Assembly (NCBI RefSeq): GCF_000307105.1
Contig: NC_018645.1
Coordinates: 593,001-657,000 of the forward strand
DNA: 64,000 nucleotides
Direction of reading: 5' to 3'
Source: Desulfobacula toluolica Tol2
GTDB lineage: Bacteria; Desulfobacterota; Desulfobacteria; Desulfobacterales; Desulfobacteraceae
The notes under the pieces were generated by a model that saw only the letters and a list, made by a program, of their open reading frames with translations, searched no databases and was not told the origin of the DNA. Of this stretch, positions 45,721 through 57,259 are shown piece by piece; position 1 is the first letter of the stretch, and each line of letters starts with the position of its first letter. Both the position numbers and the translations under genes were made by a program.

Positions 45721-46515
45721 ATGAAATTGATTGCAGATAATCTTAGAATTACAAAAACCGATGTCCAGGACGCGCTTAATGTCCGTGACCCAAGGCCTGT
45801 GCAGGATCTTGTCAAGCTATGTGCGGCAAAAATGGCCTTTGCCATTGATGTGAATACCGGACCTTTGGGCAAATCGCCTGAAGAGGGCATGGTGTTTTTT
45901 ATTAAGGCGGTGGAGAGTGTAACAAACCTTCCTCTGCTCATTGACACCTCTAATCCTGCTGCAATGAGGGCAGGGGTTGAAGCTGCTCATAACCGGGTCA
46001 TTATCAACGGATTTTCCCTTGAACCCCAAAAAATTGAGAAGATCTTACCTCTTGCACAAGAGCATGATGCGGATATTGTGGGATTTTTATTGTATCCTGA
46101 CAGCCGGGTGCCCAAGGATGAGGCTGAGCGGTTTGAGGTCGCGCTTGAGCTGTTTGAACGGGCTGAAGCGGCCGGGGTGTCAAAAGAGCGGATCATTATT
46201 GATCCCATTGTGCCGCCTTTGGCATGGGAGGACGGGATTGTTCAGGCAAGATCGGTGCTGAATGTCATACGGACTTTGCCCGATCTTATGGGGTTCCCGG
46301 TTAGAACCATTGCCGGGGTTTCCAACCTTACCACGGGGGCAAAGGATAAAGCAAAAAAGAACCTTATGGAGCAAGCTTATGTGGCCATGCTGGCAGCGGC
46401 CGGCCTGGATTATGCCCTGCTGGATATATTGAACGGGGAAACTGTATTGGCTGCAAATGCTGCAGCCATTCTTGCCCGGGAAGATATTTTTTCCTGGGGC
46501 ATGATTCCCGGTTAA
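45721..46515 (+). CDS. Methyltetrahydrofolate:corrinoid methyltransferase (AcsE-like, pterin-binding)
   Basis: 264 residues, matching AcsE (~262). TIM-barrel pterin-binding motifs are visible: AFAIDVNTGPLG, LLIDTSNPAAMRAG, RVIINGFSLEPQK, RIIIDPIVPPLAW and RTIAGVSNLTTGAKDK. It moves the methyl of methyl-tetrahydrofolate to or from a corrinoid protein, as in the Wood-Ljungdahl pathway or O-/N-demethylation. No acs/CODH genes lie in the window, so the partner is not visible. Confidence 0.88.
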   Translation: MKLIADNLRITKTDVQDALNVRDPRPVQDLVKLCAAKMAFAIDVNTGPLGKSPEEGMVFFIKAVESVTNLPLLIDTSNPAAMRAGVEAAHNRVIINGFSLEPQKIEKILPLAQEHDADIVGFLLYPDSRVPKDEAERFEVALELFERAEAAGVSKERIIIDPIVPPLAWEDGIVQARSVLNVIRTLPDLMGFPVRTIAGVSNLTTGAKDKAKKNLMEQAYVAMLAAAGLDYALLDILNGETVLAANAAAILAREDIFSWGMIPG

Positions 46516-52850: not shown

Positions 52851-54959
52851 TTATTTGATGGAAGATCTCGCGATCTGTGCCTCGTCAAAGGAGGCCATCT
52901 GGGTCATGATTTTACAGGCTGTCTCGGCCATGTCAATGGCAATTGCAGCTCCTGTGCCTTCTCCCAGCCGCATGTTGAAATCAATCAGGGGGACAAGGTC
53001 CATGTGGGAGAGTGCCGCTTTCTGGGACTGTTCCGCAGATTTGTGACCGGAGATAAGATAACCTCGGATGCTCGGGTTGATGGCATAGGCCACAAGTCCT
53101 GCCGCCGTTGAAATTACCCCGTCCAGAACCACTGCGGTTTTTTTGGAGGCAGCAGCCAGAATTGCCCCGGCAATGCCCGCGATTTCAAACCCGCCTATTT
53201 TTTGAAGGATCTCAAACCCGTTGGACGGATCAATGGTATGAAAGGCCAGAACCCGTTCAATGACTTCTGTTTTGTGGGCAAGACCCTTGTCGTCAATGCC
53301 GGTTCCCCTTCCCGTGGCCTGGGCTGGTGAAAGCCCGGTGATGACACAAATGATGGCGGAAGCAGGTGTGGTGTTGCCTATGCCCATTTCTCCGACGCCT
53401 ACAATGTCAATGGGGTTTTGTTCATAGGCGTCAAGAAAGGTTGTCATGCCGTTTTCCAGGGCATGGATCACCTGTTGGCGTGTCATGGCATTTTCAATGG
53501 CAAAGTTTTTTGTTCCGTTGGCCACTTTTTTAATGATCAGTCCGGGATGGGGGGTAAATTCACGGATGACGCCCATGTCCACCACTTTCATCTCTATGCT
53601 GTGGTGACGGCACAACACATTGATGGCAGCACCGCCGTTTAAAAAGTTGTCCACCATCTGGGCTGTTACCTCGGAAGGATAGGCGGATACGCCTTCCTCG
53701 CAAATCCCGTGATCCCCGGCAAACACAAACAGATTTTTGCGCCTGATTTCAGGGTTCAGACTGTCCTGGATCAGGCTCATTTGGATGGCCAGATCTTCGA
53801 TACGGCCCAGTGCGCCCAGGGGTTTTGTTTTTTCATCTATTTTGGCGGTGGCGGCTGCCAGCAGGTGGTTTGGCAGGGGGGTGATTTGTTCAATTACTTT
53901 TTTGCACAGGCTTTGGGGTGCAAGCTCATTGAGCCTTAAGTCCGGGGTATGGCTTTTTTGCGGGGTTTTAATGGTTGGCGAGTTTGATGCAAGGCTGAAA
54001 TCAAGGATATATTTCAAGTGTTTTCCAGACAGCACCTCTGCCATGAGGTCCGGCGCTTTTTGCGGGGCAACAATGGCTTCTATCAGCAGATTCAGCTCTT
54101 TTTCATGGGCCTGCATGAACGGCACTGCTTTTTTCATATGAGCCCGTGTCATGCCGTAGACACCTGAGACCACAGCCTCCTTGTAATGAATCAGGTTGAG
54201 CAGGTTGGTTTCAATATGTTCATTTTTTGAAATTCCGCTGAAAAAGCAAATCTGTCCGGCTTTGCCCACCTTGGCAATGCCTTGGCAAAAGGCAATAAAA
54301 TCCCCGCAGGTATTGATCACCAGTTCAAATTCGCTCTCATGGGTGTCTTTGTTGCAGGCAATGCCGGTGGCTGCAACAAAGGGGGCAATATGGGCTATTT
54401 TTGTTTCATTTTTTTCAAGGACTTGGGGCACAAGCCCCAGATGCCGGGCATAAAGCGCTGTGATCAGCCCCATGGTGCCGGACCCGTAGATCAGTATTCT
54501 GTCATTTTGCCTGACGGATAATTTTTCAAAGGCATTGATCACGCACCCGACAGGCTCTGCAAAACAGGCCGCATGGAAGGCCAGATCATCAGGGATGGGA
54601 ATCAGGCTGTCTTTTGGCAGGACGGCATGGTCGGCAAATCCGCCGTCCGTATGGAACCCGGTGATTTTCATCTCCTGGCAAAGGTTTTCCCGGCCGGTTT
54701 GACAAAAGGTGCAGGTGCCACAGCTTTTTCCGGGCCAGACAACAAAGCGTTGACCGGTTTGATCCGCGACCACGATTTCATGCCCTAAAACCCTTGGCAG
54801 AACAAGATCCCTGTGGCCCTGTTCCCACATTTTGGCATCGGTACGGCAGATGGCACAGCAAAGGACACGGGTTTGGACATACCCTTTTTCAGGGGGGGGT
54901 GTCAGTTGTTCGGCAGGGTCGATTTCAAGTTTGCCAAGGCCGGTTAACACCATTTTCAT
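52851..54959 (-). CDS. cobT: Fusion: zinc-dependent alcohol dehydrogenase (MDR) - CobT
   Basis: 702 residues. Residues 1-~322 are a medium-chain dehydrogenase: catalytic zinc ligands C38 (AICRTD), H60-E61 (LGHE) and E135 (FAEPVGC); structural zinc Cys 80, 83, 86, 94; NAD fold YGSGTMGL. Residues ~345-702 are a complete CobT: FAGDHGICEEG, GVGEMGIGNTTPASAI, TGRGTGIDDKGLAHK and the general-base Glu in RLGEGTGAAIAID. CobT makes alpha-ribazole phosphate from a lower-ligand base and nicotinate mononucleotide. It is the last gene of a cobalamin-riboswitch unit. The dehydrogenase's substrate is unknown; an aminopropanol/aminoacetone or base-modifying step is speculation. Confidence 0.9.
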   Translation of the reverse strand: MKMVLTGLGKLEIDPAEQLTPPPEKGYVQTRVLCCAICRTDAKMWEQGHRDLVLPRVLGHEIVVADQTGQRFVVWPGKSCGTCTFCQTGRENLCQEMKITGFHTDGGFADHAVLPKDSLIPIPDDLAFHAACFAEPVGCVINAFEKLSVRQNDRILIYGSGTMGLITALYARHLGLVPQVLEKNETKIAHIAPFVAATGIACNKDTHESEFELVINTCGDFIAFCQGIAKVGKAGQICFFSGISKNEHIETNLLNLIHYKEAVVSGVYGMTRAHMKKAVPFMQAHEKELNLLIEAIVAPQKAPDLMAEVLSGKHLKYILDFSLASNSPTIKTPQKSHTPDLRLNELAPQSLCKKVIEQITPLPNHLLAAATAKIDEKTKPLGALGRIEDLAIQMSLIQDSLNPEIRRKNLFVFAGDHGICEEGVSAYPSEVTAQMVDNFLNGGAAINVLCRHHSIEMKVVDMGVIREFTPHPGLIIKKVANGTKNFAIENAMTRQQVIHALENGMTTFLDAYEQNPIDIVGVGEMGIGNTTPASAIICVITGLSPAQATGRGTGIDDKGLAHKTEVIERVLAFHTIDPSNGFEILQKIGGFEIAGIAGAILAAASKKTAVVLDGVISTAAGLVAYAINPSIRGYLISGHKSAEQSQKAALSHMDLVPLIDFNMRLGEGTGAAIAIDMAETACKIMTQMASFDEAQIARSSIK

Positions 54960-54960
54960 G

Positions 54961-55161
54961 TTATAACTCCTCTTCCGTCAGAACGAGTTTTTTTATGCAT
55001 ACATTGTTAAATCCGTTTTCTTTGAGACATGATTCATGCTGCCGGACAAGGTCCATCTGCTCAAAAGTGAAGACGCTGGCTTTTTCAAGCTTGACCAACA
55101 GGTAATCGTCATCTTTGAACCGGATATAGTCTTTACCGGATTTGATAATCAAAAGTTCCAT
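54961..55161 (-). CDS. 66-residue protein of unknown function
   Basis: Starts behind AAAAAGGGAATAATAAA and ends 1 bp before the CobT-fusion start; its last codons (GAGGAG) supply that gene's ribosome site. The sequence (IIKSGKDYIRFKDDDYLLVK; MDLVRQHESCLKENGF) is soluble with one beta-hairpin and one helix. No family recognised. Conserved position between TrpD-like and CobT genes suggests a small partner subunit (inference). Confidence 0.65.
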   Translation of the reverse strand: MELLIIKSGKDYIRFKDDDYLLVKLEKASVFTFEQMDLVRQHESCLKENGFNNVCIKKLVLTEEEL

Positions 55162-55169
55162 TTTATTAT

Positions 55170-55211
55170 TCCCTTTTTATTGCATCAGTTTTATTGCGTC
55201 CGTTTTATTGC
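55170..55211. repeat. Three 14-bp tandem repeats between TrpD-like and 66-residue genes
   Basis: On the minus strand GCAATAAAACGGAC, GCAATAAAACTGAT and GCAATAAAAAGGGA follow each other. The first holds the TrpD-like stop codon and the third the ribosome site of the next gene. Confidence 0.7.
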
Positions 55212-56308
55212 ATTAGGCGGTGAAGTTTTTTTAGTCCTTTTTTGGGATCTGTATTCTGGGCTTTTACCCAGTTTTCCAGGGTTTCAAATGCTGTTCCTGC
55301 TTCCAGAAGTTTTGTTGCCTGTTGGATTCCATCTTCCACATCTTTGGCTTTTCTTGCAGCAAGGAAAATCAGGCCTGCATTGAGCAGTGCCGCGTCTTTC
55401 CTGGCACTGTTTTCCTGGTTGTTGATCAGGGCGGCAAAACGTTTTGATTCGGTTTCAATGTCTTGTTCAGGCGACAGTTCCGTATGGTTTTTCACGGCAA
55501 GGCCCAGTTTTTTAGGGTCAATGGTAAATTCGTTTGTTTTTTTATTTTCCTGGATTTGCGCGCAATGGGTGATTCCGCAGACCGAGGCTTCATCCATGCC
55601 CTTGTCTGAGTCTTCAATGGAACCGTGCAGAACAATGGCATTTTGATAGCCTATTTCCTGCATGACATCTGACACAGGCCGGATCATTTCCCTTGAATAT
55701 ACGCCCCTTACTCCGATGGACGGCAGGGCCGGGTTGGCAAGGGATGCGGCAATGTTAAGTGTGGACCCGAAATAGATTTGAGACAGGATGCGGCCCAATG
55801 CCATGGGGTGAATATGGGGGCTCATGCCGTTAAACAGGCCAAGACTTACGGTTTCAATGCTTTTGGCAACAATATCAGCCGTGCATTCCACATCAACACC
55901 CAGGGCCTCTGCCATGTCAACGGTTCCGCACACGGATGTGATGGCCCGGGCACCGTGCCTTGCCATGGGGATGCCGCCTGCAGCCGCAATAATGGAGGCG
56001 GCAGTGCTGATATTGAATGTTTTAAAGGTGTCCATTCCAGTGCCGCTGTTGTCAACGGTTTTGATCTCATGGTTTAATTTTACTTTGGTTGTGTCAAGAT
56101 CATAAATGGCCTCCCAGGAACCTGCCACTTCTTCTTTGGTTTCGCCTTTGGCGGTCAACGCTGCCAGGAAAGCACCCTGGTGCATGTCGGTGACTGTATT
56201 GTTTAAAACACAAACAAACGCTTGTTTTGCCTCATTTCGGGTGAGATTTTTTTTTTGGATAAGGCGGGTGATAATTGTTCCGAATTCCCTGTTAATTGTC
56301 TGGGACAT
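55205..56308 (-). CDS. Anthranilate phosphoribosyltransferase-like protein (TrpD paralogue)
   Basis: 367 residues with the TrpD fold throughout. PRPP/metal segments remain: NSGTGMDTFKTFNIST and GMDEASVCGITH (the Asp-Glu metal pair). Anthranilate-site residues do not: KHGNR reads RHGAR, and the two Arg near the RTxFNxLGPLxNPA block are gone (FGSTLNIAASLANPA). It is therefore unlikely to make tryptophan, and no trp genes are near. It is the first gene after a cobalamin riboswitch, upstream of CobT, so a phosphoribosyl transfer onto a lower-ligand base or precursor is a reasonable hypothesis. Confidence 0.85.
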   Translation of the reverse strand: MSQTINREFGTIITRLIQKKNLTRNEAKQAFVCVLNNTVTDMHQGAFLAALTAKGETKEEVAGSWEAIYDLDTTKVKLNHEIKTVDNSGTGMDTFKTFNISTAASIIAAAGGIPMARHGARAITSVCGTVDMAEALGVDVECTADIVAKSIETVSLGLFNGMSPHIHPMALGRILSQIYFGSTLNIAASLANPALPSIGVRGVYSREMIRPVSDVMQEIGYQNAIVLHGSIEDSDKGMDEASVCGITHCAQIQENKKTNEFTIDPKKLGLAVKNHTELSPEQDIETESKRFAALINNQENSARKDAALLNAGLIFLAARKAKDVEDGIQQATKLLEAGTAFETLENWVKAQNTDPKKGLKKLHRLMQ

Positions 56309-56397
56309 AATAGATCTCCTGAATAATCACTGATTAATAATCATAATTTTATTCAAAAGGATCTTGTTCCAGCAAAGAATCCTGTAAATCAGTATTA

Positions 56398-56602
56398 AGG
56401 CAGGCTTTCCGACTTACGGATCATCCTAATCACTGCGTCTTCCCCTTTTAAACAGAGTGACATATTGCAGTTTTTGTCCCCGATCACGGCAACGGCTGGC
56501 ATGTGACGGATTTGCACCGTCTTTCCTTTTAACCTCGGGAAGGCCGTATCGGCAATCCCGGCACCTTGATACCTTAAAAAAGGTTATACCTTTCCGGGCG
56601 TT
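56398..56602 (-). ncRNA. Cobalamin riboswitch
   Basis: On the minus strand the conserved parts appear in order: GGTGCAAATCCGTCACA, then GCCGTTGCCGTGA, GTCACTCTG, GGGAAGAC, and the B12-box region GATGATCCGTAAGTCGGAA followed by AGCCTGCC. It lies 90 bp before the TrpD-like start (GGAG before ATG). B12 would be expected to repress the TrpD-like/66-residue/MDR-CobT unit. Edges are approximate. Confidence 0.92.
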
Positions 56603-56656: not shown

Positions 56657-57259
56657 TCAGTTACAGCAGTCTTGGCATACCATTTGGCCGTCCACATCTT
56701 TCAGCTTGGATTTCATGACCGGTTCTTTGCAGCGCGAACAAGGTTCGGAAGGTTCAATGCGCGCCTTTTGCGGCAGTTCCATGGAGGTTTCTCTGATTGT
56801 AAACAGTTCTTGGTCCGGGGTTTCCAGAATCGACATGCTTTTTTGAAGATGAAGTTCCTGGAACTGTTCCTGCTCGGTATCAGTCAATTTTCCATCAATC
56901 ATTTTCCGGATCAGTTCCATGTGTTCCGGGGCAAGCCCGCTTGTGCCCGCTTTTACCGCGACCCGGACGCCTTTGCCTGAGTTGCGGCTGAGCAGGGTCA
57001 GTACCATTTTTCCGTAATCCTTGTGAATAAAATTTCCCTTTCCAAAGGTGCAACCTGTCAGAACCTGTACCGCGTCAGCTGAACAGGCGTTTGTTTCGAC
57101 AATGGCGATGATTTCTTCATCTTCGGATCGGTTTTCTTTAAGCCATGCCATACCTGCTTTGGCTGCCTTATAGCCGATGGACACCCCTGGACAGACATGT
57201 CCGTGAAATGACACGCATTGCTTAAAATCATTGCTGTTCATGATTTCCTGTACGTTCAT
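56657..57259 (-). CDS. FmdE-family protein (formylmethanofuran dehydrogenase subunit E-like)
   Basis: 200 residues. The FmdE domain has C15, H19, H21 and C23 in CVSFHGHVCPGVSIGYKAAKAG, and ETNACSADAVQVLTGCTFGKGN. A C-terminal zinc ribbon follows (CSRC ... CQDC). FmdE proteins travel with molybdenum/tungsten enzymes and often follow Mo/W signals, but the biochemical role is unknown. Here it has its own structured leader with a terminator, so expression is likely attenuated. Confidence 0.88.
   Translation of the reverse strand: MNVQEIMNSNDFKQCVSFHGHVCPGVSIGYKAAKAGMAWLKENRSEDEEIIAIVETNACSADAVQVLTGCTFGKGNFIHKDYGKMVLTLLSRNSGKGVRVAVKAGTSGLAPEHMELIRKMIDGKLTDTEQEQFQELHLQKSMSILETPDQELFTIRETSMELPQKARIEPSEPCSRCKEPVMKSKLKDVDGQMVCQDCCN

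Follow-up and report, generated by a model that had tools for sequence, protein, structure and literature searches.

A cobalamin riboswitch-linked unit of Desulfobacterota, joining a TrpD-like phosphoribosyltransferase to a dehydrogenase-CobT fusion, that probably makes or prepares a B12 lower base

The structure of the lower ligand decides which microbes can use which cobamide. BluB, one of the enzymes dedicated to lower-ligand supply, is a flavin-destroying protein of the nitroreductase fold that needs O2, and anaerobes have a benzimidazole route (BzaAB or BzaF together with CobT) in which a riboswitch-controlled base-supply gene is found next to cobT. Cobamides need the alpha form of the ribotide, which is made by CobT, whereas TrpD, the anthranilate phosphoribosyltransferase, inverts alpha-phosphoribosyl pyrophosphate (PRPP) to a beta-ribotide. 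A precedent for uniting base supply with base activation is the BluB-CobT2 fusion of Propionibacterium, where a base-supplying oxidoreductase is fused to a base-activating CobT (PMC4657239). According to one passage of PMC6461909, the ligand can be predicted for 58% of predicted producers and the remainder may make purinyl cobamides. Here we describe an operon from a 64,000-nucleotide stretch of the Desulfobacula toluolica Tol2 genome (NC_018645.1, positions 593,001 to 657,000; hereafter the window), in which a cobalamin riboswitch precedes the genes for a divergent member of the TrpD family (TrpD*), a small conserved protein (S66) and a fusion of a zinc-type medium-chain dehydrogenase/reductase (MDR) with CobT (Table 1). 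This module is conserved in dozens of Desulfobacula-like and related bacteria as a riboswitch-linked unit of the Desulfobacterota, and it probably makes or prepares a B12 lower base by a route not yet described.

The module resembles the anaerobic benzimidazole route in that a candidate base-supply gene under riboswitch control lies beside cobT in an anaerobic bacterium, and D. toluolica has a BzaF-like unit of this kind elsewhere in its genome; it differs in that no ThiC-family enzyme, either BzaA/B or BzaF, is encoded within it, TrpD* and a dehydrogenase being found instead. Compared with the Propionibacterium fusion, it has a zinc MDR in place of BluB and, next to the fusion, a TrpD paralogue. 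The likeness to ArsAB, the phenol-activating CobT pair, lies in the use of a CobT homologue for lower-ligand attachment, and ArsA is among the proteins of solved structure that come close to the CobT domain in sequence (236 bits), but the module carries one CobT fused to the MDR and not a tandem CobT pair. TrpD*, finally, departs from TrpD in that other residues stand for the Arg and Lys of its anthranilate pocket and for two in the PRPP motif, and in forming a separate clade that occurs in a riboswitch and cobT context. In the literature searched, the coverage of which excluded most subscription papers and all bioRxiv preprints, no description of a riboswitch-TrpD*-S66-MDR-CobT unit was found, nor any paper pairing "B12 riboswitch" with "anthranilate phosphoribosyltransferase".

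An earlier note on this DNA, made from the sequence alone, had described a cobalamin riboswitch followed by three tightly packed minus-strand genes, and this arrangement was borne out. The RF00174 match covers the full model, is the sole Rfam match in the window at gathering scores and lies 73 bases 5' of the TrpD* start codon, with gaps of 43 bp between TrpD* and S66 and of 1 bp between S66 and MDR-CobT. A scan of genome contigs for the MDR domain returned 29 loci, the nearest named ones belonging to Desulfobacula metagenome-assembled genomes (MAGs). The TrpD*-S66-MDR order was kept in 25 of them, which is more than chance association and means that the three-gene order is not unique to this genome. 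Of the four exceptions, two (L020 and L024) are without S66, one (L034) starts right at the edge of its contig and one (L036) consists of broken fragments. CobT follows the MDR in 21 of the 25 loci whose contig continues past an intact MDR (in broken frames in L017), and the in-frame MDR-CobT fusion is present in 27 distinct sequences. A single-sequence search detected S66 in 7 of the 146 genomes searched within the order, and a profile detected it in 5 of 395 genomes of the phylum, D. toluolica being counted in both cases. A cobalamin riboswitch stands upstream of the module in 31 of the 34 genomes checked, namely the window, 13 of 13 loci of one set, L022-L027, L030, L032, L033, L035 and seven further genomes (L020, L028, L031, L034 and L036 were left out of this search). 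L036, on a second contig of Desulfotignum S25.Bin111, holds broken TrpD* and MDR fragments together; another copy exists in the same MAG at L023, and L036 looks like a decayed duplicate of the module.

The acceptor site of TrpD* is changed throughout. Residues were counted in 41 TrpD* rows, 33 from the module and 8 from a sister form described below (L004 and L075 are one gene of G035, counted twice, and G062 and G190 are absent because their TrpD* is broken or partial). The 19 canonical rows comprised the TrpD of D. toluolica, that of the trp operon in L198 and the 17 best canonical matches of the TrpD* profile scan, and therefore lean towards TrpD*-like sequences. In the part of PMC5537072 dealing with these sites, one Arg is essential for anthranilate (Tk Arg159, Mtb Arg193, Sso Arg164), the Lys of the KHGN motif is named as anthranilate-binding and the Asn of the same motif is assigned to PRPP binding. 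This Arg is replaced by Gly in 33/33 module and 8/8 sister rows and is present in 19/19 canonical rows, while the KHGN Lys is Arg in all 41 TrpD* rows; module rows read RHGA (RHGS in one row) where canonical TrpD has KHGN. The Asp-Glu metal pair is kept in every TrpD* row, and most of the PRPP motif is retained. TrpD* has the Glycos_transf_3 fold and the metal pair of TrpD and lacks its anthranilate Arg, KHGN motif and GTGGD motif. In a tree from which open reading frame matches shorter than 250 aa, identical sequences and rows containing X had been removed, it forms a clade apart from canonical TrpD (support of 100 in the Shimodaira-Hasegawa-like approximate likelihood ratio test, SH-aLRT), and a canonical TrpD is also encoded by D. 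toluolica. An annotation trap arises here, since TrpD* passes the NCBIfam trpD cut-off (239.8 over 199.05) and a pipeline using this model would name it anthranilate phosphoribosyltransferase. A plasmid search returned 7 records at 28.5-30.2% identity, and the five with a listed gene were all annotated trpD. In G035, a genome with no riboswitch match, a type II 3-dehydroquinate dehydratase gene (aroQ; L075, 9016-9459) lies directly upstream of TrpD*.

A TrpD* profile run over the 395 phylum genomes, with at most five candidates scored per genome, set apart 13 genomes of different families at 357-723 bits from the remainder, which reached at most 225 bits. Five of the 13 are the S66 profile-positive genomes, and the other eight, in which no S66 match was found, represent the sister form. 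The order riboswitch-MDR-TrpD* was seen in seven of the eight sister loci; the contig of the remaining one, L204, stops 150 bases short of TrpD*. A separate cobT follows MDR-TrpD* in four of these loci (L197, L198, L199 and L202), and in the last three it is itself followed by cobS. L199 continues with CobD and CbiB, and its stretch of DNA also encodes CobU, CobQ and a corrinoid adenosyltransferase. In L198 (6974-12743) a trpE-G-D-C-F-B cluster with canonical TrpD lies immediately upstream of riboswitch-MDR-TrpD*-CobT-CobS. Because the sister loci show riboswitch-MDR-TrpD* without S66 and with CobT separate, the MDR and TrpD* under a cobalamin riboswitch look like the older core, to which S66 and the CobT fusion would have been added in the branch of the window.

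The fused CobT domain scores 433.5 bits with TIGR03160 (cut-off 319.3), which identifies it as a CobT, and keeps the LGEGTGAA motif. Its sequence identity to 16 single CobTs from the same genome group is 37-45%, and to the second CobT of D. toluolica 42% (rows with fewer than 280 aligned residues were dropped). At the pocket positions that correspond to SeCobT residues 80 and 88, Tyr/Met is found in most fused and Phe/Met in most single CobTs, a comparison made by eye that is not decisive. The MDR domain has the features of a zinc MDR, with Cys38, His60, Glu61 and Glu135, the structural Cys80/83/86/94 lobe and GxGxxG invariant in 24/24 module rows; the catalytic zinc ligands and the NAD preference are those that we take to hold for the family in general. 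The signature C-R-T-D-A-K plus G-H-[RK]-D-L is likewise kept in these 24 rows, and the 7 sister MDR rows keep T-D, the Lys, and G, R and D of the second motif. The solved proteins closest to it by sequence are zinc dehydrogenases, including threonine, sugar and polyol enzymes. A role in making the aminopropanol linker, considered in view of the resemblance to threonine dehydrogenase, was given low weight because L199 has a CobD next to its MDR and TrpD*. S66 matched no Pfam family above cut-off and nothing in NCBIfam; its predicted fold is beta-beta-beta-alpha-beta (AlphaFold2, predicted local distance difference test score 95.8), and the model found no Foldseek match against the PDB at E<=0.001 (VIA-align and a viral library were not searched). 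It would most likely be a small partner of TrpD* or of the MDR.

We favour, with moderate confidence, a cobamide-controlled lower-ligand module in which TrpD* phosphoribosylates an acceptor other than anthranilate and the MDR oxidises or reduces the product, or a precursor, for CobT. What makes a role in lower-ligand supply most likely is the setting of the module (a cobamide riboswitch, CobT and, at some loci, CobS), together with the in-frame joining of MDR to CobT, the retention of the metal pair and the alteration of the acceptor site. If the cobalamin riboswitch is an OFF switch, as is usual, low cobamide would let the operon be read. TrpD* would then place 5-phosphoribose, with PRPP as its most likely source, on an aromatic or heteroaromatic acceptor, and the MDR domain, zinc- and probably NAD-dependent, would oxidise or reduce the TrpD* product or its precursor to yield the base. 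The fused CobT would swap this base onto nicotinate mononucleotide (NaMN), giving an alpha-ribotide for CobS to attach to the corrinoid. Since TrpD gives beta-ribotides and CobT alpha-ribotides, TrpD* is taken to act before CobT and not to replace it, and the parallel with the BluB-CobT2 fusion suggests that the MDR may perform the last base-forming step. The core proposal of the earlier note, that the unit could make, modify or activate an unusual lower-ligand base, is plausible, and its link to lower-ligand or nucleotide-loop synthesis is supported by the recurrence of the gene order, the loss of the anthranilate Arg and the position of the sister form upstream of cobT or cobT-cobS. Under the lower-ligand reading the module would mark some of the cobamide producers left unexplained, and might also be the pathway that they use. 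A more detailed scheme, possible but tentative, would have it join BluB and Bza as the third pathway dedicated to the lower ligand: TrpD* would phosphoribosylate an arylamine, and oxidation of the sugar by the MDR would lead to chain cleavage and ring closure, with the base passing to the fused CobT. Such a pathway would be the oxygen-free counterpart of the BluB-CobT fusion, perhaps with a lower ligand not yet described.

Several observations weigh against a lower-ligand module. No CobT is found beside the MDR in four module loci (L020, L023, L024 and L029) or next to MDR-TrpD* in three sister loci (L200, L201 and L203), and in G101 (L085), which has riboswitch-TrpD*-S66-MDR, neither CobT nor CobS was found. 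No riboswitch reached the gathering score in L029 (494 bases available upstream), G035 and G231. Within TrpD*, the changes extend to the PRPP motifs, as the KHGN Asn is Ala or Ser in 41/41 rows and GTGGD reads GTGMD in 32/32 module rows with letters there and in 7/8 sister rows. G190 has S66, MDR-CobT and the riboswitch, but its TrpD* (G190:C89:54830-55594, L080) is matched only in part and carries a TAG in frame. These two changed PRPP-motif residues and the interrupted gene weaken the favoured explanation. Three of the seven sister MDRs (L197, L201 and L203) have Glu for the zinc-ligand His60, reading GEE for GHE. Finally, D. toluolica and 15 of the 37 other module genomes also have a BzaF-like gene, so that the module is not simply a replacement for BzaF; its occurrence beside BzaF would point to a base distinct from that of BzaF, or to use only under certain conditions.

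In D. toluolica, whose genome is one contig of 5,197,905 bases, the second CobT gene, not adjacent to the fused one, lies directly after a second ThiC-family gene and behind a cobalamin riboswitch of its own (86.2 bits). This ThiC-family gene scores 561 bits with the NCBIfam ThiC model (cut-off 410) and stays below the cut-off of the BzaB model. Among the fetched ThiC-family loci, 13 distinct genes are at least 63% identical to it, with CobT adjacent in 10, against 0 of the other 46 rows, at 35-46% identity; the former class is called BzaF-like by context (the rows lean to the 30 best scorers, L110 gave no match and a ThiC-family fragment of G527 was left unclassed). Given this riboswitch-BzaF-like-CobT unit, the module is not the only lower-ligand unit of its genome. 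Across 38 module genomes, a BzaF-like gene was recognised in 16 (13 by identity class, and G231, G528 and G547 by adjacency to CobT), a CobT match in 36 and CobS in 32, while BluB exceeded 150 bits in none of the 38 (best 99.5), weaker nitroreductase-type matches occurring in all. The link that the earlier note drew to an absence of bza and bluB is therefore only half true, holding for BluB and failing for the BzaF-like genes, that of D. toluolica included. Absences are weak in the 28 module genomes that were reached through their loci, of unstated completeness and most of them MAGs. A BzaF-like gene is missing from four (G044, G053, G101 and G190) of the eight module genomes that are at least 90% complete with at most 5% contamination. 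For two of these, G053 (99% complete) and G044, the searches found CobS, no CobT other than the fused one and no BluB above cut-off; G190 likewise has CobS and no second CobT match, but its TrpD* is incomplete. The module can therefore stand as the sole lower-ligand unit recognisable in a genome, yet BzaF often accompanies it.

Salvage or remodelling is an unlikely alternative, in which TrpD* would run backwards, splitting a purine or other ribotide and freeing a base for CobT, while the MDR would modify the base or the sugar. The two changed PRPP-motif residues would suit such a reaction, as would a fold common to nucleoside and AMP phosphorylases (weak NCBIfam matches), and purinyl cobamides may be the product of organisms that lack bza and bluB (a passage of PMC6461909). 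However, TrpD* retains the metal pair and, for the most part, the TrpD-type PRPP motif, and no weight was given to the AMP phosphorylase match because this model scores the canonical TrpD of D. toluolica higher (52.5 bits) than TrpD* (40.5 bits). It is improbable, too, that TrpD* and the MDR serve a B12-independent bypass for times of scarce cobamide, with CobT present only by shared control. Cobalamin riboswitches do control B12-independent isozymes as well, and the loci without CobT beside the MDR or TrpD*, like the lack of any CobT or CobS match in G101, would fit a bypass, but the in-frame CobT fusion in so many distinct sequences and the three cobT-cobS operons of the sister form speak against it.

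We give equally little credence to donor supply, whereby TrpD* would make NaMN from PRPP and the nicotinate released by CobT, closing the CobT cycle with the MDR acting separately. TrpD* often sits beside CobT, nicotinate carries its carboxylate on an aromatic ring that contains nitrogen, and the correct anomer would result from inverting twice; against this, the anthranilate-binding Arg is lost, the MDR is left unexplained and D. toluolica already has a nicotinate phosphoribosyltransferase match (208 bits). Such matches were present in 20/38 module genomes and 27/34 other genomes (72 genomes searched), and the lower share in the former may only reflect drafts, as 28 are of unstated completeness and most are MAGs. 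It is very improbable that a CobT operon acquired, by drift, a duplicate of anthranilate phosphoribosyltransferase along with an unrelated dehydrogenase, for although TrpD* exceeds the trpD cut-off, its anthranilate Arg and Lys are replaced in 41/41 rows, it forms a separate clade, it occurs in 13/395 phylum genomes of different families, and canonical TrpD exists additionally in D. toluolica and L198.

Table 1. Features of the module and its surroundings, with coordinates given as positions in the window (riboswitch and module genes all on the minus strand).
Feature	Position	Strand	Evidence or remark
Cobalamin riboswitch aptamer RF00174	56382..56583	-	cmscan 81.5 bits (gathering score 31.5), model 1-189 of 189
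TrpD* (TrpD-family phosphoribosyltransferase)	55205..56308	-	367 aa; PF00591 162 bits, PF02885 56 bits
S66 (conserved protein)	54961..55161	-	66 aa
MDR-CobT fusion gene	52851..54959	-	702 aa; ADH_N + DBI_PRT/CobT
MDR (zinc alcohol dehydrogenase-type) domain of fusion	53925..54959	-	residues 1 to ~345; PF08240
CobT domain of fusion	52851..53909	-	residues 351-702; PF02277 430 bits at residues 359-696; TIGR03160
FmdE-family gene	56657..57259		upstream neighbour of module; family match
Pterin_bind methyltransferase	45721..46515		51 bits

Between the module and the upstream FmdE-family gene, a GC hairpin followed by a T run was noted by eye, unscored, at about 56646-56618. The earlier note had also placed a corrinoid-dependent methyltransferase in the window; a methyltransferase is indeed indicated by the Pterin_bind match, its corrinoid dependence being only putative. 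Proteins with a very similar start to this methyltransferase are encoded near the module in L013, L018 and L031.

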